From contig JAESQF010000065.1 in the NCBI GenBank assembly GCA_016765295.1, forward strand, positions 1 to 43,364: DNA of 43,364 nucleotides, read 5' to 3'. The stretch comes from Oleispira sp. GTDB taxonomy: Bacteria; Pseudomonadota; Gammaproteobacteria; Pseudomonadales; Oceanobacteraceae. Each line of letters opens with the position of its first letter. Position 1 is the stretch's first letter. Shown piece after piece: positions 26,543 through 39,699 of the stretch. The notes beneath the pieces are model-generated. The model was not told where the DNA came from, ran no database searches, and was given only the letters and a program-made list of their open reading frames with translations. A program made the position numbers and the translations under genes.

Positions 26543-27343
26543 ATGACTTCCATCAATACCAGCAATAGCTTTATCGATACTGGCAACAGGTTAAATAAAA
26601 CCTTCGAGCAAATAAGCAGTGGCAAGCGTATCAATAGTGCCGCCGATGATCCCGCAGGATTAGCCATAGCAACACGTTTCTCCAGCCAAGTTTCCGGTGT
26701 TCAACAAGCTCAACGTAACGGCCTAGATGCTAAATCTTTAATCGAAACTGAAGATGGTGCCCTTGAGCAAATATCTAACGGCATTCAGCGCTTACAAGAG
26801 CTTGCCGTACAACAAGGCAATGGCATATTGAACGATTCAGATCGTGCCGCACTTAATAAAGAAGCCAGCCAAATTAGCGATCACATCAACCAAGTGATCG
26901 AACAAAGTTCATTCAATGGTAAAGATCTATTTCAACAAGATAACAACGCCCAGGATTTGAATTTCCAACTCGGAGACAAAGCCGGTGATGTGATTAGTCT
27001 GGCCGCGAATACAACAGCACAACCGATTCAACAAGGCTTAGATCAACTCGATTTTTCCAGCCCAGATGCAGCGAATAATTTAACCACGTTAGAGAGTATT
27101 CAGCAGCAGGTTACTGAGCGACGCTCGGAATTAGGCGCCGTGAGTAATCGTATTGATGGCAGTATTGATCAGCTCAAGAACGAAGAAATACAAACCCAAT
27201 CAGCTCGTAGTCGAATTGAAGATGCCGATATTGCTGAGCTCGTCAGCCAGATGACGATAGAGCTAGTAAAACAACAAGCCCAACTTGCCGTTCGTAGCCA
27301 AGCGAATGCCAGCGCGGAAGATACCCTGCGCCTACTGTCTTAA
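26543..27343 (+). CDS. Short flagellin-like protein, isolated gene
   Basis: 266 residues with both conserved flagellin ends. The N-terminal D0/D1 region contains NRLNKTFEQISSGKRINSAADDPAGLAIATRF. The C-terminal D1/D0 region contains SRIEDADIAELVSQM and QQAQLAVRSQANASAEDTL. The middle is very short, so there is no variable D2/D3 domain and the protein would form a thin, smooth filament. A strong GGAGGA ribosome-binding site precedes the ATG. No fliD, fliS or other flagellar gene is near. It may be a minor flagellin of a flagellum encoded elsewhere, or a secreted relative. Confidence 0.9.
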   Translation: MTSINTSNSFIDTGNRLNKTFEQISSGKRINSAADDPAGLAIATRFSSQVSGVQQAQRNGLDAKSLIETEDGALEQISNGIQRLQELAVQQGNGILNDSDRAALNKEASQISDHINQVIEQSSFNGKDLFQQDNNAQDLNFQLGDKAGDVISLAANTTAQPIQQGLDQLDFSSPDAANNLTTLESIQQQVTERRSELGAVSNRIDGSIDQLKNEEIQTQSARSRIEDADIAELVSQMTIELVKQQAQLAVRSQANASAEDTLRLLS

Positions 27344-27397: not shown

Positions 27398-27427
27398 GTA
27401 TAGACACGAAAATTTTCATGTCTATAC
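27398..27427. terminator. 30-bp near-perfect palindrome after the flagellin gene
   Basis: GTATAGACA and TGTCTATAC flank a central GAAAATTTTC, with one mismatched pair (c/a), giving a 30-bp inverted repeat 54 bp past the flagellin stop. There is no long T-tract after it, so it may be a terminator hairpin or a dyad operator for the kinase gene that starts 90 bp downstream. The symmetry is too good to be chance; the role is open. Confidence 0.55.
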
Positions 27428-27517
27428 TTATGGAATATTATTACTTAAAGACCATGAAATTGAGAAGTACCTTATATATTCATCATGATCTTAAAAGCAT
27501 ATAAGTAAGGAAACTTC

Positions 27518-29296
27518 ATGCTTCAGAAATACCTTCGTGAAATAACAGCCGTCATCATCGTACTTTTAACCAACTTCAATTCGAAATTTCCTTTCTCGCA
27601 AGAGCAAGACTATCAATCATCATTAAAAGAAGAAAAGATAAAAGCGGGTTTAATCACAACGACAATCACCGCTCTGGTATATATGGTTTTTTTCATTGTC
27701 GACACATGGGCATTACCCTCACAGCTTTACACTGCTGGATTGGTTCGTTGCAGCTTCTTTTTATTATCAATTTATATCTTGCATTTGATTGTGAAAAAAG
27801 AGGATTTATTTGTTAATTTTTATCAGGTCATTATTGCCAGTTATTTTTTAATTGCTGGCCTCGGGATAATTTTTCTTTTAATGATCGCTAACCAGTCGGA
27901 AATTGCGACAGACTTTTACTTTTCAGGAATCATGCTTGTTATTTTCACAGCACACGGCACGACCTACCTACAACCAAACATTGCCTTAATTGTAAGTTCG
28001 TCTCTAACCGTTATAACAATAATCGCACTTCTGATAGCTCGTTCACTTGACCAGATCAATACTTTCTATCAAATTTCCATAAATGCCTTCATGCTAATAT
28101 CGTCAGTGATTGCAGGGGTTCTTTGTATGGATATCAGGAATCGATTTTCGAGAAAAAACTTTGTACTACAAGCTAACTCGGAGCGCCTTAATACAGAAAA
28201 ATCTCAATTCTTCGCTGCAGCAAGCCATGATATTCGCCAGCCCCTGCAAGCGATTAGTTTTTTAGTAAGTGCACTTAGATCAGGAAATACCAAACCAAAA
28301 GACGATAATCTATTTGAGCGCTTAGAAAATAGTATCGAAAGCATGTCTGATTTACTTAACAGCTTACTTGATGTTTCTAAATTGGATGCACATGTCATTA
28401 TACCCAAGCCACAGCACCTTTCCTTAATGCCGTTACTAGAAAGATTACAAGGTGAGGTAACCCCCTTTGCGAAGGCTAAAAATATTAATATAGTTATTGA
28501 ATGTGGCAACGACACTGTCTTCGCTGATGCCATTCTATTGGAACAAGTACTAAATAACTTATTATCAAATGCTATTCGCTATACAAATTCTGGAACTATT
28601 ACATTATCTGCACAGAGTGGCTCAAAGCACATAAATATAAGTGTAAAAGATACTGGAATGGGCATCGACCGTAATGATCAGGAAGCTATTTTCAATGAAT
28701 TTCATCAAATACATAATCCGGAACGAGATCAAAACAAAGGTCTAGGCTTAGGTTTATCGATTGTTAAGCGTCTGTGTGCATTACAAGATTGGCCATTATC
28801 CCTTGATTCTGAATTGGGTGTTGGCAGTTGCTTTAGCTTTAAAGTAGCGAAGGGTAGTAGTGATCTCATTCAATCGCCTGACAAGACTGATATGAATAAT
28901 AACCTAGGCGCTATTGATGTAATCCTTATAGACGACAATGAATCTATTCGTTTTAGTCTGTCTAATATATTAAGCAAGTGGGGCTGTAAGATCCGTTCAT
29001 TTGAATCAACTGATGACGCTTGTGAAGCGATCGAGCAATTACCAAGTTGGAAACCTAATTTATTAATATCAGATTATCGTTTACGTAATAACGTAACAGG
29101 TATAGAGGCTATTGATAAAGTAAAAGAATCACTGAATTACCCGATTACTGCAATGGTAATTACGGGTGATACCGCACCAGAGGAAATAGCGAAGATAGAG
29201 AAAAGCGGTTTAGCTATATTACATAAGCCCATCAAACCTGCACAACTCAGACTAATGATATCCAATAAAATGAGGTCTTTTATTGAATCTAAATAA
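27518..29296 (+). CDS. Membrane hybrid histidine kinase with C-terminal receiver (HK1)
   Basis: 592 residues. About six membrane helices fill residues 45-205, with little periplasmic loop. A HisKA domain (His237 in AAASHDIRQPLQAI), HATPase (NNLLSNAIRY, DTGMGI, GLGLGLSIVKRL) and a receiver (about 470-590, acidic LIDDNE, Asp519 in LLISDYRLR, Lys in LHKPIKP) follow. The HDIRQPL H-box is typical of a hybrid-kinase group often paired with NarL-type regulators. The signal is unknown. An AAGGA site lies 6 bases before the ATG. It is clearly paralogous to the kinase at 35228. There is no regulator gene immediately next to it. Confidence 0.92.
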   Translation: MLQKYLREITAVIIVLLTNFNSKFPFSQEQDYQSSLKEEKIKAGLITTTITALVYMVFFIVDTWALPSQLYTAGLVRCSFFLLSIYILHLIVKKEDLFVNFYQVIIASYFLIAGLGIIFLLMIANQSEIATDFYFSGIMLVIFTAHGTTYLQPNIALIVSSSLTVITIIALLIARSLDQINTFYQISINAFMLISSVIAGVLCMDIRNRFSRKNFVLQANSERLNTEKSQFFAAASHDIRQPLQAISFLVSALRSGNTKPKDDNLFERLENSIESMSDLLNSLLDVSKLDAHVIIPKPQHLSLMPLLERLQGEVTPFAKAKNINIVIECGNDTVFADAILLEQVLNNLLSNAIRYTNSGTITLSAQSGSKHINISVKDTGMGIDRNDQEAIFNEFHQIHNPERDQNKGLGLGLSIVKRLCALQDWPLSLDSELGVGSCFSFKVAKGSSDLIQSPDKTDMNNNLGAIDVILIDDNESIRFSLSNILSKWGCKIRSFESTDDACEAIEQLPSWKPNLLISDYRLRNNVTGIEAIDKVKESLNYPITAMVITGDTAPEEIAKIEKSGLAILHKPIKPAQLRLMISNKMRSFIESK

Positions 29297-29342
29297 GTAC
29301 TCATTATTTTTCATAACAAAATCCCTCACTCTAAAACACAAT

Positions 29343-29357
29343 CACCCCCAGGGGTGA
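29343..29357 (+). terminator. GC-rich hairpin between HK1 and the delta-60 gene
   Basis: TCACCCC-C-AGGGGTGA region: arms TCACCC and GGGTGA with a short loop, 46 bp past the HK1 stop. No T-tract follows. It shares the pattern CAATCACC-N6-GGTGA with the hairpin at 32320-32345 on the other side of the next gene. Confidence 0.4.
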
Positions 29358-29417
29358 CCGACATTACTTGGGCCCGCGATTTAATACATAAGAATTTTTA
29401 ATACCACGGAAATTATT

Positions 29418-32285
29418 ATGTATTTACCAACTCCAAAAATACTCGCGGCTGCGATCACTCTTGCCTGTGCAAGCACGACTTACGCTGCTCCCATTGATCT
29501 GGATACGTCATTTAGTTCAGATGGGAAGCACCAACAGAACTACGGTATCACCACAGGAGCCCCCGTACTCAAATCATATTTCACCGATGTTGCGGTAACT
29601 CCTGATGATAAAATCATTGCGGTAGGCCATGCCCTACGCAATAGCTCTCAGTTTGAGGGCATTATTGTTAAGTATTTGAGTGACGGCTCTCTCGATACCA
29701 GTTTTGATACTGACGGCATTGCCCGCCACCATACGTTAAGTGATACACGCCTTAACGCCGTTGCCATACAAGCAGATGGCAAAATTCTGATTGCAGGTAA
29801 TAGCCGTGCCCATGCTGATTGGCAGCTGACCGTTATGCGCTTAAATACCGATGGCTCGCTGGATACCGGCTTTGCAGACAACGGCATCTATACTGTTCGC
29901 TATTCTAACCCTGCTTCCAGCCCGAGCTCTCGCCCTACTTACGGCCATTTATACGGCCGTGATATCGCCATCAACTCCCAGGGTGAAATTTTTATCAGCG
30001 CCAGCCAATATACGGGGCAAACGCTAAGCCTAAATCGATACCTTGGTCATGTTATTAAGCTGGATAGCCAGGGTGTATTGGATACAGGGTTTGGCTATAA
30101 CGGTAATAATGCCAATAATGGTGATACTCGCCTTGTATACAGTGATTACAATAACTATTCAGTAGACATCACCAAACTGACCTTTGATGCTAACGATAAT
30201 ATGTATGTGGGTGGAAGCTGGGCATACATGTCGACGGGCGGTCCCAATACTATGTTTCTGCAGCGGATCGCTGCTGATGGCAAGGCCGTCAATCAAGCTA
30301 ACCCGTTCTCTCATATTGCCTACAACCGTTGGTCATTAGATTCAGACCCTAGATATAGTGGTAATAGCGATAAGCAAGTTTTAAACAGCGCAGTGGTATT
30401 ACCCGGTGGCGATATTATCAGCGCTGGATGTGATAGAAGCCTACCCGCTAACCCTACACGGTTGCAAAGACACACCCCGACAGGAAGCTTTGTCTCAGGC
30501 TTTGGCACCAACGGTGTTGTAACAGAGGGCATCGACGACATGAATGATTGTTATAGGGATATGAATTACCACCCAACGGTAGGCATGATCGCTGTGGGTA
30601 TTGCAGGCACAGCCCCATTTATCTCTTATACCGATAAAGATACGGGCAATGCTATTGACTCAAATATACTGCCAGAAACCGGTTATTTTGACGGGGTGGC
30701 GACATTAAGTACTGGGCAAGTTGTTGTTGTTGGCAACGCTGAAAATACAGTTTCCGGATCGAGAGAGTCCTTTATCAGCGTCTTTGAAGGCAATGCGCTA
30801 ACAACCGGAGCAACACCGACCGCTACGAGCTTTACCTCGTCTTCCCATGCGAACGTGCCATTAAATACGCCACGTCTATCCAACTCAGCCCACAGCATCA
30901 CTATTACCCCAACAGGCTCTTTAAGCGCTAATGTTATCGATGGCGAAGTCGTGATTAATTCTGCCGCGGCTCAAGCAGGCGCCGTAACGATTACCGATGC
31001 TGACAATGTAAGACTTAGAAACCCGGGAAGCAGCGAACCAGAAATCGAAACGGTCACTAAACTCGTTATCGATCGAGGCACAGGTTTTAGCCACAATAAC
31101 AAATCCTGGAAGCCTACCGATAGCATCAGTACATTTAAAACAACAACACTTGCAGCGGATAGAACACCCGATGCATTTTCTTTTCCAAATACAGGCAGCG
31201 CCTCAGCGGTTAACTCCGTAAGCATTTCTGATACCGTTACGATTGCAGGTATTAACGCCACTGTAGACGTTACTATTTCATCAGGCGCAGCCTATTCTAT
31301 TAAACGTGCTGGCCAAGCGAATGCAGAAAGCTATACCCAGCAAGCTGGCACTATTCGAGTGGGTGACGAAATAACGGTTCGCCATACCAATAGCAGTGCT
31401 TATGCCACCGCAACCACATCAACACTCACCGTCGGCGGCGTTAGTGCAACTTATACGACGACAACTGAAGCCATGGACACTGTGCCAGATGCTTTTAGTC
31501 TCGGTACAGTCGCTAATACTCTTGGCACCAATGTATTAGCGCAAGCAACTGGAATCATTTACGTCAGCGGTATTAATGCCCCTACGCCAATTTCCATTAC
31601 AAATGGTATATACAGCATTAATAGTGCTGCTTACACATCCGCACAAGGGACTATAAATGATGGAGACCGGGTTATAGTTCGATTTACTACCAGCAGCCTG
31701 CCTTCTACAGCAAAAACCATCACCCTAGACATTGGTGGTGTGACGGATAGCGTTACCCATACCACGATTGCAACTGACACAACCCCGGATGCATTTAGCT
31801 TTCCTGTCCAGACTGGCGTTGCCTTAAGTAGCACAATTATCTCGGCACCGATTACGGTTTCTGGCATCAGTGCAGGCACACAGGCTTCTATTACCAACGG
31901 TGAAATGAGCTGGAACGGTGGCGCCTATAGCTCTAGTAGTATCACCGTACAGGATGGCGATACCATTCGCGTTCGCCATACCAGTTCAGCACAAAATAGC
32001 ACCACGACAACGTCTGAAGTCAATATTGGAGGTGTCACTAGCCGCTTCGAAAGCACGACTGTAGCCGCAAGCACAACCCCCACCCCAACACCTGAACCTA
32101 CTCCAGAGCCAACTCCAGAACCAACTCCAGAACCAACTCCAGAACCAACACCTAAACCTACTCCAGAGCCAACTCCTACTCCTGAAGAGCCAGTTGCAAG
32201 TTCGGGAGGATCAGGTGGTGGCTCTATGAACTTCCTGTACTTATTAGCAGCAGGCTTGTTATTCGTTCGTAAGCGTAAGTCATAA
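29418..32285 (+). CDS. Delta-60 repeat secreted protein with GlyGly-CTERM tail
   Basis: 955 residues. A signal peptide (about 1-23, ending TYA) is followed by about five delta-60 type repeats (GSLDTSFDTDG, GSLDTGFADNG, GVLDTGFGYNG) in a predicted beta-propeller (about 25-460). Next come three Ig-like tandem repeats of roughly 100 residues (about 584-895), each starting near PDAF and ending near IGGV. A Pro-Thr-Glu linker leads to the tail SSGGSGGGSMNFLYLLAAGLLFVRKRKS, a GlyGly-CTERM sorting signal (Gly/Ser run, hydrophobic helix, basic end). In that pathway a rhombosortase cleaves after type II secretion. Its ligand or function is unknown. Confidence 0.85.
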   Translation: MYLPTPKILAAAITLACASTTYAAPIDLDTSFSSDGKHQQNYGITTGAPVLKSYFTDVAVTPDDKIIAVGHALRNSSQFEGIIVKYLSDGSLDTSFDTDGIARHHTLSDTRLNAVAIQADGKILIAGNSRAHADWQLTVMRLNTDGSLDTGFADNGIYTVRYSNPASSPSSRPTYGHLYGRDIAINSQGEIFISASQYTGQTLSLNRYLGHVIKLDSQGVLDTGFGYNGNNANNGDTRLVYSDYNNYSVDITKLTFDANDNMYVGGSWAYMSTGGPNTMFLQRIAADGKAVNQANPFSHIAYNRWSLDSDPRYSGNSDKQVLNSAVVLPGGDIISAGCDRSLPANPTRLQRHTPTGSFVSGFGTNGVVTEGIDDMNDCYRDMNYHPTVGMIAVGIAGTAPFISYTDKDTGNAIDSNILPETGYFDGVATLSTGQVVVVGNAENTVSGSRESFISVFEGNALTTGATPTATSFTSSSHANVPLNTPRLSNSAHSITITPTGSLSANVIDGEVVINSAAAQAGAVTITDADNVRLRNPGSSEPEIETVTKLVIDRGTGFSHNNKSWKPTDSISTFKTTTLAADRTPDAFSFPNTGSASAVNSVSISDTVTIAGINATVDVTISSGAAYSIKRAGQANAESYTQQAGTIRVGDEITVRHTNSSAYATATTSTLTVGGVSATYTTTTEAMDTVPDAFSLGTVANTLGTNVLAQATGIIYVSGINAPTPISITNGIYSINSAAYTSAQGTINDGDRVIVRFTTSSLPSTAKTITLDIGGVTDSVTHTTIATDTTPDAFSFPVQTGVALSSTIISAPITVSGISAGTQASITNGEMSWNGGAYSSSSITVQDGDTIRVRHTSSAQNSTTTTSEVNIGGVTSRFESTTVAASTTPTPTPEPTPEPTPEPTPEPTPEPTPKPTPEPTPTPEEPVASSGGSGGGSMNFLYLLAAGLLFVRKRKS
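32074..32188 (+). repeat. Pro-Thr-Glu coding minisatellite
   Basis: Tandem 12-bp units close to CCAACTCCAGAA encode a repeating P-T-P-E linker just before the GlyGly-CTERM tail. Several central units are identical, a pattern prone to copy-number change. It probably forms an extended stalk through the cell envelope. Confidence 0.85.
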
Positions 32286-32319
32286 ACACTGTTTACTTAA
32301 CGTCTCAATCACAACAAAA

Positions 32320-32345
32320 CTCAATCACCTTCTAGGGTGATTGAG
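32320..32345 (+). terminator. Hairpin after the delta-60 gene
   Basis: CTCAATCACC and GGTGATTGAG form a perfect 10-bp stem with a 6-base loop, 34 bp past the stop codon. The downstream sequence is not T-rich, so it may act as an RNA stability or processing element rather than a classic terminator. Confidence 0.55.
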
Positions 32346-32415
32346 ATCTCAATTACTTCAGTAAACTGGCTCTACATTAACGTTGTTTCTTAGCCAAACA
32401 ATAAAGGATTTCATT

Positions 32416-33927
32416 ATGTTAAAAAAATCACTACTCTCACAAGCACTACTCTCAGCTACTCTAATTTTAACAGGCTGCGGCGGCGGATCTGGTGGTGGAC
32501 CAACCCCACCGGAAACTACACCTCCAGCAACTACGCCACCGGTAACGACCCCGCCCGTAACTACGCCACCAGTAACGACTGTACCCGTTATCGAACAAGC
32601 ACTTTTTGCGGCAAACAGCGATATTAATACGGGCACCGAGTTATGGATCACAGACGGCACCGAAGCGGGCACAAAATTCGTAAAAGATATTAATGCCAGC
32701 GGTAATAGTAATCCATTTAACTTCACTAAAGTTGGCAGTAAATGGTTCTTCAATGCAGATAATGGCATTAATGGCATAGAGCTTTGGGTCACTGATGGTA
32801 CTGAATCAGGCACATCAATGGTTAAGGACATCAGATCTGGGGGTTCCGACAGCTACCCTGACAATTTAATCGCTTATAATGACAAACTTATTTTTTCAGC
32901 CACTGATGGTCTCGGCGATACCGAGCTATGGATCTCTGATGGCACAGAAGCGGGCACTAACCTAGTTAAAGACATACATCCTAATACCAGCTCTCGTATC
33001 GGTAATACTGTCTTATTTAATGATGAAGTCTATTTCACCGCTAAAGATGAAAATTACGCACGACAAGAATTATGGAGAACCGATGGCACAGAAGCTGGCA
33101 CTCGATTAGCGGCCCAAATCAATCCAAATCCTTCTAACCTTGGTGATGGTAGTTTCATTGGCAGCACACCTGGGCTGCTTACACCTTTTGGCAATGCGTT
33201 ATTCATGGTAGCTGATAACACATTTTCACAACCTGACCCGACTATCGAATTAGAACTTTTCTCTTACATACTGGATGGGTCGACACATAAGTATGATGTC
33301 CTTGCGGGCAAGGCCAGCAGCAAGCCAAATGAATTGACAGTCATTGATGATAGCCTTTACTTTGTTGCAAAAGATAACTCGGGCTACAACATATGGGCCC
33401 ATAGAGGTGGTCAATTACACCCAATGACAAGCTTTACCGGTGCAAGTGCAGGTTCAGCCCCTAAGTTTCTTACCGCTGTGGGTGACAAACTTTATTTTGT
33501 AGCGAATGAGCCTATACAAGGATCTGAATTATGGGTTACTGATGGGACTCCATCGGGCGCTAGACCGGTGAAAGATATCAATGCAGGTAATTTGGGTTCT
33601 GCCATTCGTGATCTACACAGTGTTGACGGTAAACTATTATTTGTGGCCCGTGGCAATATACATACCGAAGAAGATGCCTTATGGGTAAGCGATGGTACAG
33701 AAGCTGGCACCGTAGAAGTTAGTAAAATTACAGCAACAGGATCTAATCCACTCTTAGAACAATTCATGGTACTCAATGACAAGCTACTGTTCTCTGCCGA
33801 TGATTCTGTTCATGGCGCCGAGCTTTGGTCAAGCGATGGTACGTCTGCAAATACCAGCTTGGTGAAAGACATTAATCCTGATGCATTAGACAGTTATCCT
33901 GCATTTATTGAAGTACAACACCACTAA
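32416..33927 (+). CDS. ELWxxDGT-repeat lipoprotein
   Basis: The frame opens at 32383, but the ATG at 32416 follows AAAGGA and gives 503 residues. The signal peptide ends in the lipobox LILTGC, followed by a Gly-rich stretch and a Pro-Thr-Val linker (about 35-60). Seven repeats of the ELWxxDGTxxGT type follow (for example ELWITDGTEAGT, ELWVTDGTESGT, ELWSSDGTSANT), likely the blades of a beta-propeller. The family is widespread on bacterial surfaces, but its function is not known. It lies between the delta-60 gene and a decayed receiver domain, flanked by hairpins. Confidence 0.88.
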   Translation: MLKKSLLSQALLSATLILTGCGGGSGGGPTPPETTPPATTPPVTTPPVTTPPVTTVPVIEQALFAANSDINTGTELWITDGTEAGTKFVKDINASGNSNPFNFTKVGSKWFFNADNGINGIELWVTDGTESGTSMVKDIRSGGSDSYPDNLIAYNDKLIFSATDGLGDTELWISDGTEAGTNLVKDIHPNTSSRIGNTVLFNDEVYFTAKDENYARQELWRTDGTEAGTRLAAQINPNPSNLGDGSFIGSTPGLLTPFGNALFMVADNTFSQPDPTIELELFSYILDGSTHKYDVLAGKASSKPNELTVIDDSLYFVAKDNSGYNIWAHRGGQLHPMTSFTGASAGSAPKFLTAVGDKLYFVANEPIQGSELWVTDGTPSGARPVKDINAGNLGSAIRDLHSVDGKLLFVARGNIHTEEDALWVSDGTEAGTVEVSKITATGSNPLLEQFMVLNDKLLFSADDSVHGAELWSSDGTSANTSLVKDINPDALDSYPAFIEVQHH

Positions 33928-33956
33928 GAAAATACCAGTAAAGAACTTACTGAACA

Positions 33957-33987
33957 TAAATAGATGCTACCCGTTAGCATCTATTTA
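33957..33987 (+). terminator. Terminator after the ELWxxDGT lipoprotein gene
   Basis: TAAATAGATGCTA and TAGCATCTATTTA form a perfect 13-bp stem with the 5-base loop CCCGT, 29 bp past the stop. The following sequence is A/T-rich but lacks a pure T run. Confidence 0.7.
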
Positions 33988-34157
33988 TATCCCTCATTAA
34001 AAATAAAAAAACAATACAATATCATTTACTCTAATAGCGACAACGGGAGTCAGGGATTAGCAGCATGCCAAAAACACATTCAACTCCACCGATAAACAAC
34101 ACCGCTATTAAGCATAAAAATAGTACCAACAAACTTTTTGGATTCAAGTAAAGTAAA

Positions 34158-34478
34158 GTTATTATCATTGAACGTAATGACAGAATTCGTAAAAAAACAT
34201 GGAAGCCCAGATTAATAATTTTTGATTTTAATTTAGACGATAATAAATTCGGTGCTGACAATATCAAATCCATTCAAGAGTTTTATACTTGTGATATTCC
34301 TATAATCGCCTTCATCGTCGATACAGAACTGATTAGAACTCAGTTTGTAAAAGATAGCCGTTTTACAATCCCATATAAGCCAATCAATGCCGCTCAATTA
34401 AGGTTCGTAATGAACAAGAAAATATTAAGACATTCACTGCAACAGGCCTCACAATCTTTTACATTTGACATAAAATAA
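34158..34478 (+). pseudogene. Relic receiver domain of a third hybrid histidine kinase
   Basis: This 629-bp gap between genes holds a decayed reading frame. From 34158 it translates to VIIIERNDRIRK..TWKPRLIIFDFNLDD...FGADNI, and later PYKPINAAQLRFVMNKK. It lines up with the receivers of HK1 (VILIDDNESIRF, SWKPNLLISDY, LHKPIKPAQLRLMISNK) and HK2. About 30 residues between the first strand and TWKP are missing, the acidic DD is now ER, the conserved Thr/Ser is lost, and an in-frame TAA sits just upstream at 34149. There is no usable start. The putative phosphoacceptor Asp and Lys survive. It looks like the stump of a deleted kinase gene. Confidence 0.78.
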
Positions 34479-34556
34479 ACTTTGCTAATAACCTTGTGTT
34501 AATAGATGATGATTGGTTCGATCAATCTTAACCATCGATAGTAGGATGAATTTCTC

Positions 34557-35201
34557 GTGAAAATACTGCATCTTGATGATCACACTATGTTTGCTGAAGG
34601 TTTAAATGTCGTTGTTTCCTTGCACGCTGATGATTTATCTATTGTCGGAGCCAGCAGTGTCGAAGGTGCCTGGCAAGTATTAGAGCAGCAGCCTGACATT
34701 GAGTTAATACTGATCGATTTGAACATTCCTGGCTTAAATGGTCTCGATTTTATCGAAAGCTTATTCGAGCGAAATTTTTATATTCCCTTTATTGTGTTAT
34801 CAGCATCCAGCGATCTTTTTCAGATCCGCAGCGCCTTAAATAATGGTGCTTCGGGTTTTATCCCTAAGACCTACTCCATTACTCAGATTTTACAGGTTAT
34901 CGAGCAAGTGCTGGCGGGTGATATTGTTGTGCCAAAGGATATTGAACAAGCGATAGCCTATTTGCCAGAACATGAGCCCTCGCAGAATCACTATAAAACC
35001 ATGACCAATTATAACTTGGGACAACGACAAATGGACGTGCTGAAATTGATGCAGGAAGGCCATTCTAATAATGAAATCGCTGAACGGTTAAACTTGAGTA
35101 AAAACACCATAAAAACTCATGTAAAAACGTTATTTTCAGCGTTCCAGGTCAGTAATCGTATAGAGTGCGTGCGTTATGCTGAGCGAATAGAGTTAATTTA
35201 G
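34557..35201 (+). CDS. NarL/LuxR-type response regulator (RR1)
   Basis: 214 residues, starting with GTG preceded by AGGA. The receiver domain (about 1-120) has LDDH, phosphoacceptor Asp54 in LIDLNIPGLNG and Lys in GFIPKT. The LuxR-type helix-turn-helix (about 150-214) carries LGQRQMDVLKLMQEGHSNNEIAERLNLSKNTIKTHVKTL. It should bind DNA after phosphotransfer. It lies 26 bp upstream of HK2 on the same strand, so HK2 is one likely partner. The relic kinase upstream may have been another. It is a paralogue of the regulator at 37034. Confidence 0.93.
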   Translation: MKILHLDDHTMFAEGLNVVVSLHADDLSIVGASSVEGAWQVLEQQPDIELILIDLNIPGLNGLDFIESLFERNFYIPFIVLSASSDLFQIRSALNNGASGFIPKTYSITQILQVIEQVLAGDIVVPKDIEQAIAYLPEHEPSQNHYKTMTNYNLGQRQMDVLKLMQEGHSNNEIAERLNLSKNTIKTHVKTLFSAFQVSNRIECVRYAERIELI

Positions 35202-35227
35202 AGTCAAACTTTAAAGGAATAGTAGTT

Positions 35228-36943
35228 ATGTCATTAGATTCTAAAAAAATATCAAAGATAGAATTTGAAGAGCTGCGGCTCAATAATTTTATGAAGGAGT
35301 CATTGCCTCACTATTTAGGTGCGATATTTGTTGCTGCTCCCTTTTATGCGTTTATTCTTCATAAATCAGCCATTGAACATGCTTATTTAATCTGGTTTTC
35401 TTTAGATTTGTTATTCTTAATAGCCACCCTTGGGGTGTACTATATTTACTATCGAAAAAAAGAAATGCTAAATTTAACGATAGCTGCCATTCCTATTGTA
35501 GGTTTTTCTTTGTTTATTACTACATCACCTTGGTTGTTTTTAAAGACAGATCAAAGTATTTATTATTTTACGATGATGGTGATGTTATTTTCTTTAGTCG
35601 CTAATTCAGCTTACGCATTTTCCTACTATTTGAAATTAATAGCCGTGCTATTAATTACGCCGTTAGCCTCTTTATTATTTAAAATTTCTTACAGTAATAT
35701 AGAGGATGGATTGATTTTACAGGTGGCTATTGTTCTAACAGTGGCTTCTGCTCTGGTTTTTTACCGATATATAAGCAATAGGTCTCTACAAACAATTGAA
35801 CTGCAGCTAGAAAATGTACAAGCTCGGATTGAGGCAGAGCAAGCAAACCATGCAAAATCTAAATTCTTAGCAGCGGCCAGTCATGATATTCGTCAGCCTT
35901 TACAAGCGGTGGTTTTCTTTCTAGAAACCTTAAAGAATCGTAATAGAGATCCCGATGATGAAATTATTTATGGACGCTTAGAGTCAAGTGTTGAGAGTAT
36001 GTCTGGGTTGCTTAATGATTTACTGGATATATCAAAGCTGGATGCTGATTCAGTACATAGTAAGTCAGAACACTTTAGTCTGACAGAGCTTGGCGATAGA
36101 TTAATAAATGATGTTCATCCATCGGCTGAAAAGAAGTCGTTAAGTATTGATAAGGATTCATCGGATCTTTATGTGTTTGCAGATACAATTTTATTAGATC
36201 GGGTGCTTAAAAATTTATTGTCGAATGCCGTTCAATATACCGACCAAGGAAGCATTAGCCTCTCTTCTCAGCAGCAAGCAGAGACTGTATTAATACAAGT
36301 TAAAGATACGGGTATTGGTATTCCTGCGAGTGAGCAGCAGAGTATTTTTGATGAATTTCATCAGTTACAGAACCCTGAGCGAGACAGTAATAATGGACTA
36401 GGTTTAGGCTTAGCGATTGTTAAACGCCTATGCGATCATCAAAATTGGCCGCTAACGTTAGTATCAGACTCATCAGGTAGCTGTTTCTCTGTTGAGGTAC
36501 CTTTGGGTGATCGAAATAAAGTAGTGGAGGTGACTCAGCCGAAGATTTCGGGAGAGCTAGGATCTATTCGAGTGCTAGTCATTGATGATGATGAGGCTAT
36601 TTGCCATAGCTTAGTCGCTTTATTTAAGAGCTGGGGAAGTGAGGTTGAAGCATTTGAAAGTGCGCAAGCAGCGGAAGATTTCTTATTAGCTAACCTTGAG
36701 TGGCGACCTAATTTATTAATATCGGACTACCGATTAAGAGAAAATAAAACAGGTGCAGAGGCTATTCAACAAATACATGGAGTACTAGACGAGGAAATTC
36801 CAGCGCTTATTATTACGGGAGATACGGATCCTCTTAGGATTCAAGAAGCAGAAGCGAGTGGTTTTGCTATTGTCCATAAGCCGATTAAAGCTGTGAAGAT
36901 CCGAACGTTTATACTGCAGCGCTGTAAACCCTTAATCAGCTGA
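35228..36943 (+). CDS. Membrane hybrid histidine kinase with C-terminal receiver (HK2)
   Basis: 571 residues, about six membrane helices (about 30-190), a short coiled linker, HisKA (His219 in AAASHDIRQPLQAV), HATPase (KNLLSNAVQY, DTGIGIP, GLGLGLAIVKRL) and a receiver (about 445-570, LVIDDDE, Asp500 in LLISDYRLRE, Lys in VHKPIKA). Domain order and long stretches match HK1. An AAAGGA site lies before the ATG. It sits between two NarL-type regulators, giving the order RR1-HK2-RR2. The signal is unknown. Confidence 0.93.
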   Translation: MSLDSKKISKIEFEELRLNNFMKESLPHYLGAIFVAAPFYAFILHKSAIEHAYLIWFSLDLLFLIATLGVYYIYYRKKEMLNLTIAAIPIVGFSLFITTSPWLFLKTDQSIYYFTMMVMLFSLVANSAYAFSYYLKLIAVLLITPLASLLFKISYSNIEDGLILQVAIVLTVASALVFYRYISNRSLQTIELQLENVQARIEAEQANHAKSKFLAAASHDIRQPLQAVVFFLETLKNRNRDPDDEIIYGRLESSVESMSGLLNDLLDISKLDADSVHSKSEHFSLTELGDRLINDVHPSAEKKSLSIDKDSSDLYVFADTILLDRVLKNLLSNAVQYTDQGSISLSSQQQAETVLIQVKDTGIGIPASEQQSIFDEFHQLQNPERDSNNGLGLGLAIVKRLCDHQNWPLTLVSDSSGSCFSVEVPLGDRNKVVEVTQPKISGELGSIRVLVIDDDEAICHSLVALFKSWGSEVEAFESAQAAEDFLLANLEWRPNLLISDYRLRENKTGAEAIQQIHGVLDEEIPALIITGDTDPLRIQEAEASGFAIVHKPIKAVKIRTFILQRCKPLIS

Positions 36944-36989
36944 CATTAGGTTCACCCTCAGGGATTAGCTGAATATCTTCTTGTCTTAT

Positions 36990-36995
36990 TATAAT
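36990..36995 (+). promoter_or_regulatory. Possible -10 element upstream of RR2
   Basis: A perfect TATAAT lies 38 bp before the ATG at 37034 in the 90-bp gap after HK2. No good -35 was found at normal spacing, so an activator might be needed, or the match may be chance. Confidence 0.3.
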
Positions 36996-37033
36996 GTACT
37001 GATGTTACAACTTATACCGAGCTTCCGTTACAA

Positions 37034-37684
37034 ATGAAAATATTACACCTAGAAGATCATACTTTATTTGCTGAAAGCTTCAGTGCCTTATTAACAAGTT
37101 TGCGCAGTGATTTTCAAATTATTAGTGCCTCGACAACCAGAGCCGCTCTGGAAATACTGTCTGAACACGAAGATATCGATTTAATTATCATTGATTTGAA
37201 TGTGCCAGGACTTCACGGGCTGACATTTATTGATGGTTTAAATCAACGTAACTTGTACATTCCGTTTATTCTTTTATCTGCATCAGACGACTTGAAAAAA
37301 ATTCGCTTGGCATTACGTAATGGTGCGTCGGGTTTTATACCAAAAACTAATTCAGCCAAGCAAATATTAGCGGCTATCGATCAGGTCATGGGAGGCAGTG
37401 TTGTCATTTCTGCAGAGCTCAAAAAACAGCTAAAGATACTTGATGAAAAGGAACCAGTAGGGAGTGTTTCTTCTGAAATTGCACGGCGCTATCAATTATC
37501 TGAACGCCAGCTTGATGTATTAAATCTTATTCAGAAAGGTTGTAGTAATCAAGAGGTAGCACAGGTACTCAATATAAGTGTTAATACCGTTAAAGTTCAT
37601 ATGCGAGTACTGTGCGAAGCATTTGAAGCAAAAAATCGTAACGACTGCGTTTCTTATGCAGAAAAAATAGGTCTGCTTATTTAA
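37034..37684 (+). CDS. NarL/LuxR-type response regulator (RR2)
   Basis: 216 residues. The receiver has LEDH, Asp54 in IIDLNVPGLHG and Lys in GFIPKT. The C-terminal helix-turn-helix has LSERQLDVLNLIQKGCSNQEVAQVLNISVNTVKVHMRVL. It closely resembles RR1 over its full length, with differences mainly in the linker and recognition helix. The ribosome-binding site is weak. A hairpin with a short T run follows the gene, separating it from the lipoprotein gene downstream. Confidence 0.92.
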   Translation: MKILHLEDHTLFAESFSALLTSLRSDFQIISASTTRAALEILSEHEDIDLIIIDLNVPGLHGLTFIDGLNQRNLYIPFILLSASDDLKKIRLALRNGASGFIPKTNSAKQILAAIDQVMGGSVVISAELKKQLKILDEKEPVGSVSSEIARRYQLSERQLDVLNLIQKGCSNQEVAQVLNISVNTVKVHMRVLCEAFEAKNRNDCVSYAEKIGLLI

Positions 37685-37732
37685 CCTGTAAAACGCCCCT
37701 ATATTTCCTCTTCTGAATACTCTGTTCACCCT

Positions 37733-37755
37733 GAAGTATTATTCAATACTTCTTT
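37733..37755 (+). terminator. Terminator after RR2
   Basis: GAAGTATT-ATTC-AATACTTC is a perfect 8-bp stem with a 4-base loop followed by TTT, 49 bp past the RR2 stop. Confidence 0.65.
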
Positions 37756-37870
37756 AATCATTATTTAATAGCAACTACTAAAACAAAGAGCCTTTAAATT
37801 AACACCACATCAAACAAGTGGTTTGATTTACAGGCTCAATTCAACGTGTTGCTATTGAGTGAGAAAGAAT

Positions 37871-39568
37871 ATGAATAACATGAATAAGAACGTATTGGCC
37901 TTGGCCGTTTGTTCGTTATTAACTGCTTGTGGTGGCTCAGGCGGGGGTTCTGGTGGCGGTGCAGCAGGTGGCGAAACAGGTGGCGAAACAGGTGGCGAAA
38001 CGGGTGGTGCAGGTACTGGCCCCAAAGATTATACTCTCAGTGGTAGCGTATCAGGCCTTACCGGTACACTTGATTTAATTAATACCAGCAACCAAGAAAC
38101 TGTTTCTATTGCAGGTAATAGCTTTGCCTTTTCGCAAAAGCTAGCTAATCAAGCACAATATGATATTAATCTAGCTTCCGCTGCTGATGGTCAGCAGCTG
38201 TGTGAAGTAATCGATGGCTCTGGCGTAGTAGCAGCGGCCAGTGTTACTGATATCGAAATAGTATGCCGTGACTGGGCCGCAATTGCCACTATCCTAAACA
38301 GCGGTACTGCAGAAGCTCGATATCCAAAAATTGCCCGCGTCGATGATGCATTGGAAGTGGTTTGGTTTGACCGTCAGATTGGCGCGTGGCTTTTTAAACG
38401 TGCTTATGATGCTGCTAACGGTTGGGGTGATGCATCGTTTTATGCAAGTGTTGACGGTTATCGAGCCAATGGCCATAAGGTCGTTGCTAATAGCCAGGGG
38501 GAGAGCATGGTGGTTTATAAGTCAACTCGTCCTCATTATGGCGGTGAATTTATCTATGCCAGCAACAGTCTTGATATATCAACCAGCAATTTTACTGAGC
38601 ATGGCCGTTCTTACGACTATGATATCGATATTGATGACCAAGGCCATGTGTTATTGGTGTGGGTTAAGTCTGATAACTTAGTATCAACGGAGAAGTCTGT
38701 ATATTACAAATATTTTGATGGCAGCTGGGGCTCTGAAGTCAAGTTAGAAACCAATACCACAGGTGATGCTAAGCACCCAGTGGTGAAGTTTACCGGAAAT
38801 GGCACGGCCGTTGTGGCATGGGCATTTGCTACACATCCGGGTCCTGGCCCTAGTGCTGGTCCTATATATGATGGCGTACAAGTAGCTTCTTTTGATGCAA
38901 GTAAAGCTAGCAATAAATGGACGGCAGACAGTTCTATTGATACCGCTAACGGTGGTTGTGCGCAGGTCGTCGATAGATCAATTGATATCGATGTTACCGA
39001 AAATGGCACGCCGACAGTTGCCTGGATGCAAGGTAATGGTCAGTGTGGTGGTGCTTATAAACAACCACTGCAGATAAGTAAGTTAGAGCAATCAACTTGG
39101 TCTGCTCCGATTAATATTTCAGGTGTTGATACCTCATCGAGTAGTGCAAAAATATTAGCTCTTACAGGCAATAAGATATTAGCAGTCTTCAATGACAGTA
39201 TTAAAACTTTTGCTAAAACCTGTGATATGACCACGGACACTTGTACCGGTGCTACGGAATTGGCAGCAGAGTTTAGAGAAATTCAATCACTGGCAAAAGA
39301 TAACAATAATAATGTCATGGCTGCTTGGATTGGCGGCGATAATGCTTATGTGAATCGTTATGATGCGGTTAATGATAGCTGGAGTGTTATGAGTAAGATA
39401 AATAATGATACTGTAGGAAATGCTGAGATTGCAGCACTTGATGGTGATTTTGTTGTGACCTGGTCTGAGTATAGAGATTTGTCTCCATCATCTTCATTAA
39501 AAATAGTGCCACTTTCTGTTGCCACTAATCGCTGGACTGTATTTGCTAAGGAATTTAAAACACAATAA
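37871..39568 (+). CDS. Lipoprotein with Gly-rich linker and beta-propeller-like repeats
   Basis: The frame opens with GTG at 37859; the ATG at 37871, after GAGAAAG, is the better start and gives 565 residues. The signal peptide ends in the lipobox LLTAC, followed by a Gly-rich linker with GGET repeats. A short beta domain (about 50-130) and a long region of repeated beta-strand motifs of the kind DDQGHVLLVWVK, GTAVVAWAFA, NGTPTVAWMQG and NNNVMAAWIGG follow, resembling sialidase-like propeller blades. I do not recognise a named family. It is probably a surface-exposed lipoprotein. The gene follows RR2 and is a plausible target of the regulators, by position only. Confidence 0.75.
   Translation: MNNMNKNVLALAVCSLLTACGGSGGGSGGGAAGGETGGETGGETGGAGTGPKDYTLSGSVSGLTGTLDLINTSNQETVSIAGNSFAFSQKLANQAQYDINLASAADGQQLCEVIDGSGVVAAASVTDIEIVCRDWAAIATILNSGTAEARYPKIARVDDALEVVWFDRQIGAWLFKRAYDAANGWGDASFYASVDGYRANGHKVVANSQGESMVVYKSTRPHYGGEFIYASNSLDISTSNFTEHGRSYDYDIDIDDQGHVLLVWVKSDNLVSTEKSVYYKYFDGSWGSEVKLETNTTGDAKHPVVKFTGNGTAVVAWAFATHPGPGPSAGPIYDGVQVASFDASKASNKWTADSSIDTANGGCAQVVDRSIDIDVTENGTPTVAWMQGNGQCGGAYKQPLQISKLEQSTWSAPINISGVDTSSSSAKILALTGNKILAVFNDSIKTFAKTCDMTTDTCTGATELAAEFREIQSLAKDNNNNVMAAWIGGDNAYVNRYDAVNDSWSVMSKINNDTVGNAEIAALDGDFVVTWSEYRDLSPSSSLKIVPLSVATNRWTVFAKEFKTQ
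37967..38002 (+). repeat. 12-bp tandem repeat encoding GGET linker
   Basis: Three copies of GGTGGCGAAACA (the third ends in G) in frame within the lipoprotein gene, directly after the lipidation site. Copy number may vary between strains. Confidence 0.85.
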
Positions 39569-39667: not shown

Positions 39668-39699
39668 AAAAGCCAATCTAAAGGAATAGATTGGCTTTT
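39668..39699. terminator. Bidirectional terminator between the lipoprotein gene and hisF
   Basis: AAAAGCCAATCTA and TAGATTGGCTTTT form a perfect 13-bp stem with a 6-base loop and A/T tracts on both sides. It serves the two convergent genes. Confidence 0.88.

Follow-up and report, generated by a model that had tools for sequence, protein, structure and literature searches.

A probable gained islet in Oleispira pairing hybrid histidine kinases and NarL-type regulators with exchangeable surface proteins

The window analysed here is a stretch of 43,364 nucleotides from an Oleispira sp. (contig JAESQF010000065.1, or C68, of the 3.6-Mb assembly GCA_016765295.1), and a block of about 12 kb within it (27518–39568) lies between a flagellin gene and hisF. 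The block holds eight features, all on the + strand: a membrane hybrid histidine kinase (HK1), an exported delta-60 protein, an ELWxxDGT lipoprotein, a receiver relic, a NarL-type regulator (RR1), a second hybrid kinase (HK2), a second regulator (RR2), and a lipoprotein with a Gly linker (Table 1). Sequence comparisons make it probable that this block was gained as an islet and that its membrane hybrid kinases and NarL-type regulators control neighbouring, exchangeable surface proteins through an operator of two heptamers spaced by 2 base pairs (bp), referred to as 7-2-7. An initial annotation had listed the same genes in the same order and on the same strand, and all eight features are confirmed in their places.

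Composition, recurrence and empty site of the block

HK1 and HK2 each combine HisKA, HATPase_c, and Response_reg in one chain and are therefore hybrid histidine kinases. RR1 and RR2 are REC-GerE proteins with Response_reg and GerE above the cut-off and the phosphoacceptor Asp kept, which places them among the NarL/FixJ response regulators. The paralogous pairs of the initial annotation are borne out, as the kinases are 42% identical over 462 columns and the regulators are 50% identical to each other. The relic is the tail of a receiver domain, 36% identical to HK2 over 74 columns. GC content in 1-kb bins is 35–40% over the kinase and regulator genes and mostly 42–47% over the flanks and the surface-protein genes. 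An Rfam scan of the window gave no match.

The combination recurs in other genomes. ELWxxDGT proteins are found in 24 of 390 genomes of the order, and in at least eight of these carriers (G000, G010, G105, G187, G199, G249, G285, and G334) the gene has an HDxRQP hybrid kinase and a NarL-type regulator as neighbours; the loci counted per genome are those among the matches listed, and the same genomes may hold more. G015, which was drawn separately, has the order kinase, ELWxxDGT, kinase, regulator. One layout, with regulator and kinase convergent and kinase and ELWxxDGT divergent, recurs in three families of the order (f20, f24, and f43; six genomes). Across the class, ELWxxDGT occurs in 28 of 369 genomes (E ≤ 1e-8), and 19 of the 27 other genomes, those among the matches listed, supplied 20 regions for inspection. 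A kinase adjoins ELWxxDGT in at least three of the 19 (G494, G722, and G626), and in G726 a core-only kinase lies one gene away. Among the kinase-adjacent genomes inspected class-wide, a regulator is also present only in G626, which belongs to another order and carries ELWxxDGT, a homologue of the Gly-linker protein (1091 amino acids), kinase, regulator, and ELWxxDGT, much of the composition of the window. Repeated co-occurrence, which the initial annotation had set as a test, is thus borne out in different genera and families and in at least one order besides that of the window.

A profile built from 17 such kinases was run on 194 genomes, with seven candidates scored per genome. At least 49 top matches reached 417 bits or more, and 47 of these reach past the core into the membrane N-terminus (before model position 50); under 417 bits most matches cover the kinase core only, and a few extend further. 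HK2 alone as a query against the genome contigs returned one distant match. Regions around the top matches, excluding ten known loci and G112:C232 (452 bits, at a contig end), make up set A (36 regions), which is separate from the regions used to read the operator. Control B consists of 40 regions of core-only kinase matches (776 kb). A second control consists of 34 ELWxxDGT regions in which no such kinase adjoins the gene (582 kb), among them L197 with a core-only kinase one gene away.

It could be argued that the neighbourhood is due to chance, such kinases and exported repeat proteins both being common and often adjacent. Exported non-membrane proteins of at least 300 amino acids do occur no more than two genes away from 13 of 39 control kinases as well as from 22 of 36 in set A (Fisher p 0.021), yet lipoprotein-like neighbours at that distance number 16/36 in set A and 3/39 in the control (p 0.0004). 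Both counts use a rough signal-peptide rule on related loci that are not independent, and L184 is left out of them (hence 39 of 40 controls) and kept in the operator count. With about seven such kinases per 4,000 genes, the rough expectation for ELWxxDGT beside a kinase is under 1%, against the eight or more carriers in 24 that were found. Together with the operator linkage described below, these figures make chance a highly improbable explanation.

In the five congeners examined, HisF is 95–98% identical and the flagellin gene (26543–27343 in the window) lies 26–140 bp from hisF; because the two genes adjoin in all five, the 12-kb block is absent there. A polysaccharide deacetylase gene also stands beside flagellin in four of the five, within the contig stretch examined. 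The congeners gave no HK2-like match at 1e-60 and no RR2-like match at 1e-35. Since the block is missing in 5/5 congeners, it appears to have been gained here, the alternative being loss in the five. No transposase was seen by eye among the translated open reading frames (ORFs) of the window, and none of the repeats listed is common to both block ends. Two other elements flank the block: a palindrome, TAGACACGAAAATTTTCATGTCTA (27401–27428), which lies upstream of HK1 and differs from the operator, and a bidirectional terminator-like hairpin (39668–39699) between the Gly-linker gene and hisF.

Table 1. Positions of the block's genes, operator-like sites, and empty-site span in the window
Feature	Start	End	Strand	Remarks
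HK1, membrane hybrid histidine kinase	27518	29296	+	5 hydrophobic segments, HDIRQP H-box, C-terminal receiver
Delta-60 (DUF5122 propeller) exported protein	29418	32285	+	signal peptide and tail by eye
ELWxxDGT lipoprotein	32416	33927	+	lipobox LTGC, Pro/Thr linker, predicted beta-propeller body
Receiver relic, remnant of a third such kinase	34152	34478	+	NF041832 E 1.6e-6
RR1, NarL-type regulator	34557	35201	+	55% / 52% identical to regulators of G015 / G010 loci
HK2, hybrid kinase	35228	36943	+	domains; 69–71% identical to kinases of G205 and G097
RR2, NarL-type regulator	37034	37684	+	REC-GerE domains
Gly-linker lipoprotein	37859	39568	+	lipobox, linker, body; homologue in G626
Operator TCACCCCCAGGGGTGA	29342	29357	.	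60 bp before delta-60 start codon
Operator TCACCTTCTAGGGTGA	32325	32340	.	75 bp before ELWxxDGT start codon
Weak operator-like site TCACCCTCAGGGATTA	36952	36967	.	2 mismatches; 66 bp before RR2
Operator half-site TTCACCC	37725	37731	+	upstream of Gly-linker lipoprotein; weak
Span absent from five congeners	27344	39733	.	flagellin-hisF comparison; bounds not exact junctions

A 7-2-7 palindrome ahead of surface-protein genes

The candidate operator is the 7-2-7 palindrome TCACCYN-NN-NRGGTGA. The window holds two exact core sites, both upstream of surface-protein genes, and none arose in 100 shuffles. It was recognised by eye in upstream stretches of the window and of the six divergent ELWxxDGT/kinase regions, in the 18-bp form TTCACCC-N4-GGGTGAA, with two mismatches in the three f24 regions. 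Set A contains 15 sites within one mismatch of this form, spread over eight regions; 13 precede genes of the WCHD lipoproteins described below, one precedes a kinase gene, and one lies inside an ORF, the 14 upstream sites falling in seven regions. At the same threshold no site was found in the 40 control-kinase regions or in the 34 ELWxxDGT-only regions, and at exactly two mismatches the two controls hold nine and ten sites, mostly inside ORFs, with a few near a gene start. When 200 permuted half-sites were searched in set A, the mean was 0.40 and the maximum 10, the latter from near-identical permutations. The exact 18-bp site occurs in 35 places in 31 of the 194 genomes, against nine for a backward control, and in seven genomes (G006, G008, G013, G017, G090, G151, and G199) all ten exact sites sit at the kinase locus.

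In G626 a variant, ATCATAC-TNNA-GTATGAT, lies in the same layout ahead of all three exported genes, and at L058 a near copy of this variant (one mismatch) precedes the gene of a 229-residue protein with an apparent signal peptide, near a kinase 56% identical to HK1. Both forms show the inverted 7-2-7 layout, and the NarL dimer is described as binding inverted heptamers 2 bp apart (PMC4549865). In the regulator recognition helix, 20 of 21 rows from operator loci have S-x-N-T; among the remaining 32 aligned rows, which are not all NarL-type, three do, and the rows are related. These observations suggest that the regulators are linked to the surface-protein genes through a shared operator.

The palindromes could instead serve as terminators or as sites of an unrelated regulator, in a neighbourhood that is only loosely functional. 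A terminator scan does list both window palindromes on the − strand (10 found, 11.1 expected); however, the block has no gene on that strand, and the + strand shows no T-run after either palindrome. In the six divergent kinase/ELWxxDGT regions the letters themselves, and not the pairing alone, are nearly identical. Both control sets are empty of sites within one mismatch, and the recognition helix co-varies with operator presence, in rows that are related. This explanation is very doubtful.

Partner proteins of related kinases

Seven set-A loci (L112, L113, L114, L115, L120, L123, and L125) carry at least one lipoprotein of an unnamed family, here WCHD, with up to four paralogues per locus (e.g., L120:11001-12161). 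These proteins are 340–450 amino acids long and share conserved cysteines and the motif WSAG ... WCHD or WCND. None of the five tested matched Pfam at 0.001, and the WCHD profile identified no fold among PDB sequences, the one weak match (E 0.12) covering the first 40 positions. A protein of L051 with the WSAG ... WCHD motif also has repeats resembling those named PDAF in the delta-60 protein of the window. Other kinase neighbours are FG-GAP (L048), tectonin (L128), GLUG (L121 and L133), lactonase-propeller (L142), TSP3 (L132), autotransporter, and Calx-beta proteins, along with enzymes, and some kinases have no such neighbour. The idea of a propeller partner for each kinase of this kind was dropped, since the neighbours include enzymes and many of the kinases have no operator. 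Directly downstream of the kinase at L128 (5385-8606), the tectonin-domain protein is accompanied by a secretin-domain lipoprotein-like protein. At L122 and L124 such kinases stand in tandem, next to a small receiver-like ORF (130–136 amino acids, by eye), and at L146 (13953-16493) the start of a neighbouring ORF reads X (masked or unknown bases).

A tree of 59 kinases was built by a quick method; tree and labels take in a few kinases from elsewhere in a region, and L116 and L118, in which the H-box pattern was not matched, were left out. One clade of 26 rows contains 21 of the 22 operator rows, the exception (L059) being a long branch, and the five remaining rows of the clade lack this operator, L207 and L058 having the variant instead. 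Four partner states (ELWxxDGT, WCHD, delta-60, and a secreted pair in G097/G205), labelled by the authors, need three changes on the tree, the minimum possible for four states. This labelling fits modular exchange, with the operator as the putative fixed element. The modular locus that gains and loses units, as envisaged in the initial annotation, is supported by the different partners beside related kinases and by the five congeners, none of which has any of the block between flagellin and hisF.

An alternative role for the exported protein is that of a sensory partner in the main, a propeller lipoprotein that recognises a ligand outside the cell and modulates the membrane kinase. The window kinases have five hydrophobic segments ahead of the H-box and no large periplasmic loop, the longest gap between segments being 37 residues in a simple hydropathy scan, and their N-terminal membrane part contains no Pfam domain. 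This lack of a periplasmic sensor domain would suit such a partner, as would the precedent of Bacteroidetes hybrid two-component systems, in which the propeller lies in the same chain. The kinase core, moreover, is nearest to the NahK/ErcS model NF041832 (314.8 and 320 bits, below the membership cut-off of 400), a family in which a sensing protein encoded by a neighbouring gene modulates the kinase (PMC12997753). However, the partner family changes while the kinase N-terminus stays alignable, something that a fixed protein interface would hardly permit. The operator marks the partner gene as a target of the regulator, and at L125, where one kinase is accompanied by four paralogous lipoprotein genes, three carry their own site. 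A mainly sensory role is thus unlikely, and it would be compatible with control through the operator as a form of feedback. A substrate-binding-like lipoprotein (by eye) lies between two kinases at L050 (3960-5192) and is possibly a sensory partner.

Two of the window's exported proteins belong to named families. The delta-60 protein scores 126.2 bits with TIGR02608 (cut-off 76.5); its propeller comes first, followed by three PDAF repeats that to the eye look Ig-like, then by a linker rich in Pro and Thr, and finally by a Gly-rich tail with a transmembrane segment and a basic end. The tail, named GlyGly-CTERM in the initial annotation, was recognised by eye, and no GlyGly-CTERM model is among the matches at E ≤ 0.01. 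The ELWxxDGT protein, whose ORF is listed from TTG 32383 and more likely starts at ATG 32416, scores 362 bits with TIGR04534 (cut-off 65) in seven stretches. Its body is predicted to be a propeller of about nine blades, the model having 36 strands (pLDDT 74.8, pTM 0.80). The model's best match is the designed protein Cake10 (VIA Z 22.4, rmsd 3.5, 326 aligned), followed by Cake9 and then by others including BamB, and Foldseek matches further include LRP6, sortilin, and prolyl oligopeptidase. A PDB sequence search with the ELWxxDGT profile gave no match at 0.01. The Gly-linker protein is 24% identical over 490 columns to the 1091-residue lipoprotein of G626 (L207), its single-sequence model reaches a pLDDT of 36, and no relatives were found on viral contigs. 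ELWxxDGT-related stretches (L215–L221) are present on contigs classed as viral (IMG/VR).

The plan of signal, linker, and body ascribed to all three surface proteins in the initial annotation applies to the ELWxxDGT and Gly-linker proteins, each with lipobox, linker, and body, but not to the delta-60 protein, in which the propeller precedes the linker. Likewise, a propeller body is supported for ELWxxDGT by the predicted model and for delta-60 by Pfam DUF5122, but not for the Gly-linker protein at its pLDDT of 36. No function is known to us for either ELWxxDGT or delta-60 proteins, and a search of open-licence papers for 'ELWxxDGT' or 'delta-60 repeat' found none.

Proposed mechanism and related systems

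The block probably represents two diverged copies of one module. Module 1 would comprise HK1, delta-60, ELWxxDGT, the lost kinase, and RR1, and it resembles G015 in order and in RR1 identity; module 2 would comprise HK2, RR2, and the Gly-linker protein. The membrane part of the kinase probably senses a cue in the envelope or outside the cell. To judge from the domains, the kinase would then autophosphorylate and transfer the phosphate to its own receiver and to the NarL-type regulator. A regulator dimer would bind the palindrome 60–75 bp ahead of the surface-gene starts, as layout, conservation, and helix co-variation suggest, and so switch the neighbouring surface genes on or off. The surface slot appears exchangeable, related kinases keeping the operator beside ELWxxDGT, WCHD, delta-60-type, or other exported proteins. 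The term 'sensory and surface-display system', used in the initial annotation, goes beyond the evidence as to what is sensed or displayed.

Several findings weigh against an operator-controlled islet. In the window, neither HK1 nor HK2 has a site, the RR2 site TCACCCTCAGGGATTA is not above chance alone, and the Gly-linker gene has a half-site only; because of this weak site and half-site, module 2 is less well supported. Allowing two mismatches, the window holds seven sites against a shuffle mean of 2.87, a count reached by three of 100 shuffles and so only weakly above chance. The assembly, which is 72% complete, has one further exact core site beyond the window pair, located 91 bp upstream of an apparent flavoprotein dehydrogenase gene (by eye), which is not a surface-protein gene. 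At one mismatch it has 34 core sites against nine for the backward control, an excess that is unaccounted for. Elsewhere, an operator upstream of a gene is missing in 29 of the 36 set-A regions, and L205/L206 have ELWxxDGT beside a kinase with neither regulator nor operator. Twenty-five exact 18-bp sites lie away from the kinase loci in 24 other genomes, against nine in the backward control; two of these genomes, G205 and G189, have a kinase of the operator clade with no exact site beside it. Support for the 26-row kinase clade is only 85 (SH-aLRT). A wider regulon in the Oleispira assembly was also considered; 12 of the 30 one-mismatch core sites outside the window were inspected, and since all 12 fall inside ORFs, no such regulon is claimed.

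Four known systems come closest. Bacteroidetes hybrid two-component systems with Reg_prop carry propeller, kinase, and helix-turn-helix in one chain. The likeness lies in propeller, hybrid kinase, and DNA-binding output, whereas in Oleispira these are encoded by three genes instead of one polypeptide and the propeller is predicted to be lipid-anchored or exported. The NahK/ErcS kinases of Pseudomonas, with AgmR/ErbR-type LuxR regulators, share the HisKA-HATPase-REC core, a nearby LuxR/NarL-type regulator, and an adjacent modulator protein; according to PMC12997753, NosP modulates NahK and a YiaY-PP_2683 pairing has been proposed. The window kinases differ in their multi-helix membrane N-terminus and sub-threshold family score, and their partners are exported propellers or lipoproteins accompanied by a local operator. 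The E. coli NarL system likewise combines a NarL-type regulator with an inverted 7-2-7 heptamer site (PMC4549865), but here the kinase is a hybrid, the heptamer is another (TCACCYN), and the candidate targets lie beside the regulator. In Chromohalobacter, the NarL/FixJ regulator EupR has a hybrid kinase, Csal869, nearby; this pair was considered and set aside as a match. Csal869 has a PutP/SSF-like membrane sensor and PAS, the system is linked to ectoine uptake, and the word 'lipoprotein' is absent from the text of PMC2964678. The component families are known, and a linked two-component regulatory module with such an operator was not found in print in the open-licence literature, where a search for the motif gave one paper, on Streptomyces regulators.

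A wider proposal, put forward tentatively and at slightly less than even confidence, is that the module is a widespread mobile cassette of Gammaproteobacteria, in which kinase and regulator own a private operator and a slot for swapped surface proteins, with possible feedback. The slot would take ELWxxDGT propellers, WCHD lipoproteins, and delta-60 proteins, perhaps also FG-GAP or tectonin types. If this were true, a lineage carrying the cassette could change its surface without rewiring its sensing. ELWxxDGT and delta-60 proteins gain a candidate regulator, a predicted operator, and a testable context. If the proposed control is right, the operator would be a sequence marker that assigns surface proteins without a known function to a sensing circuit, and the empty site and the partner exchange would provide a concrete example in which surface proteins are swapped while their control stays fixed.

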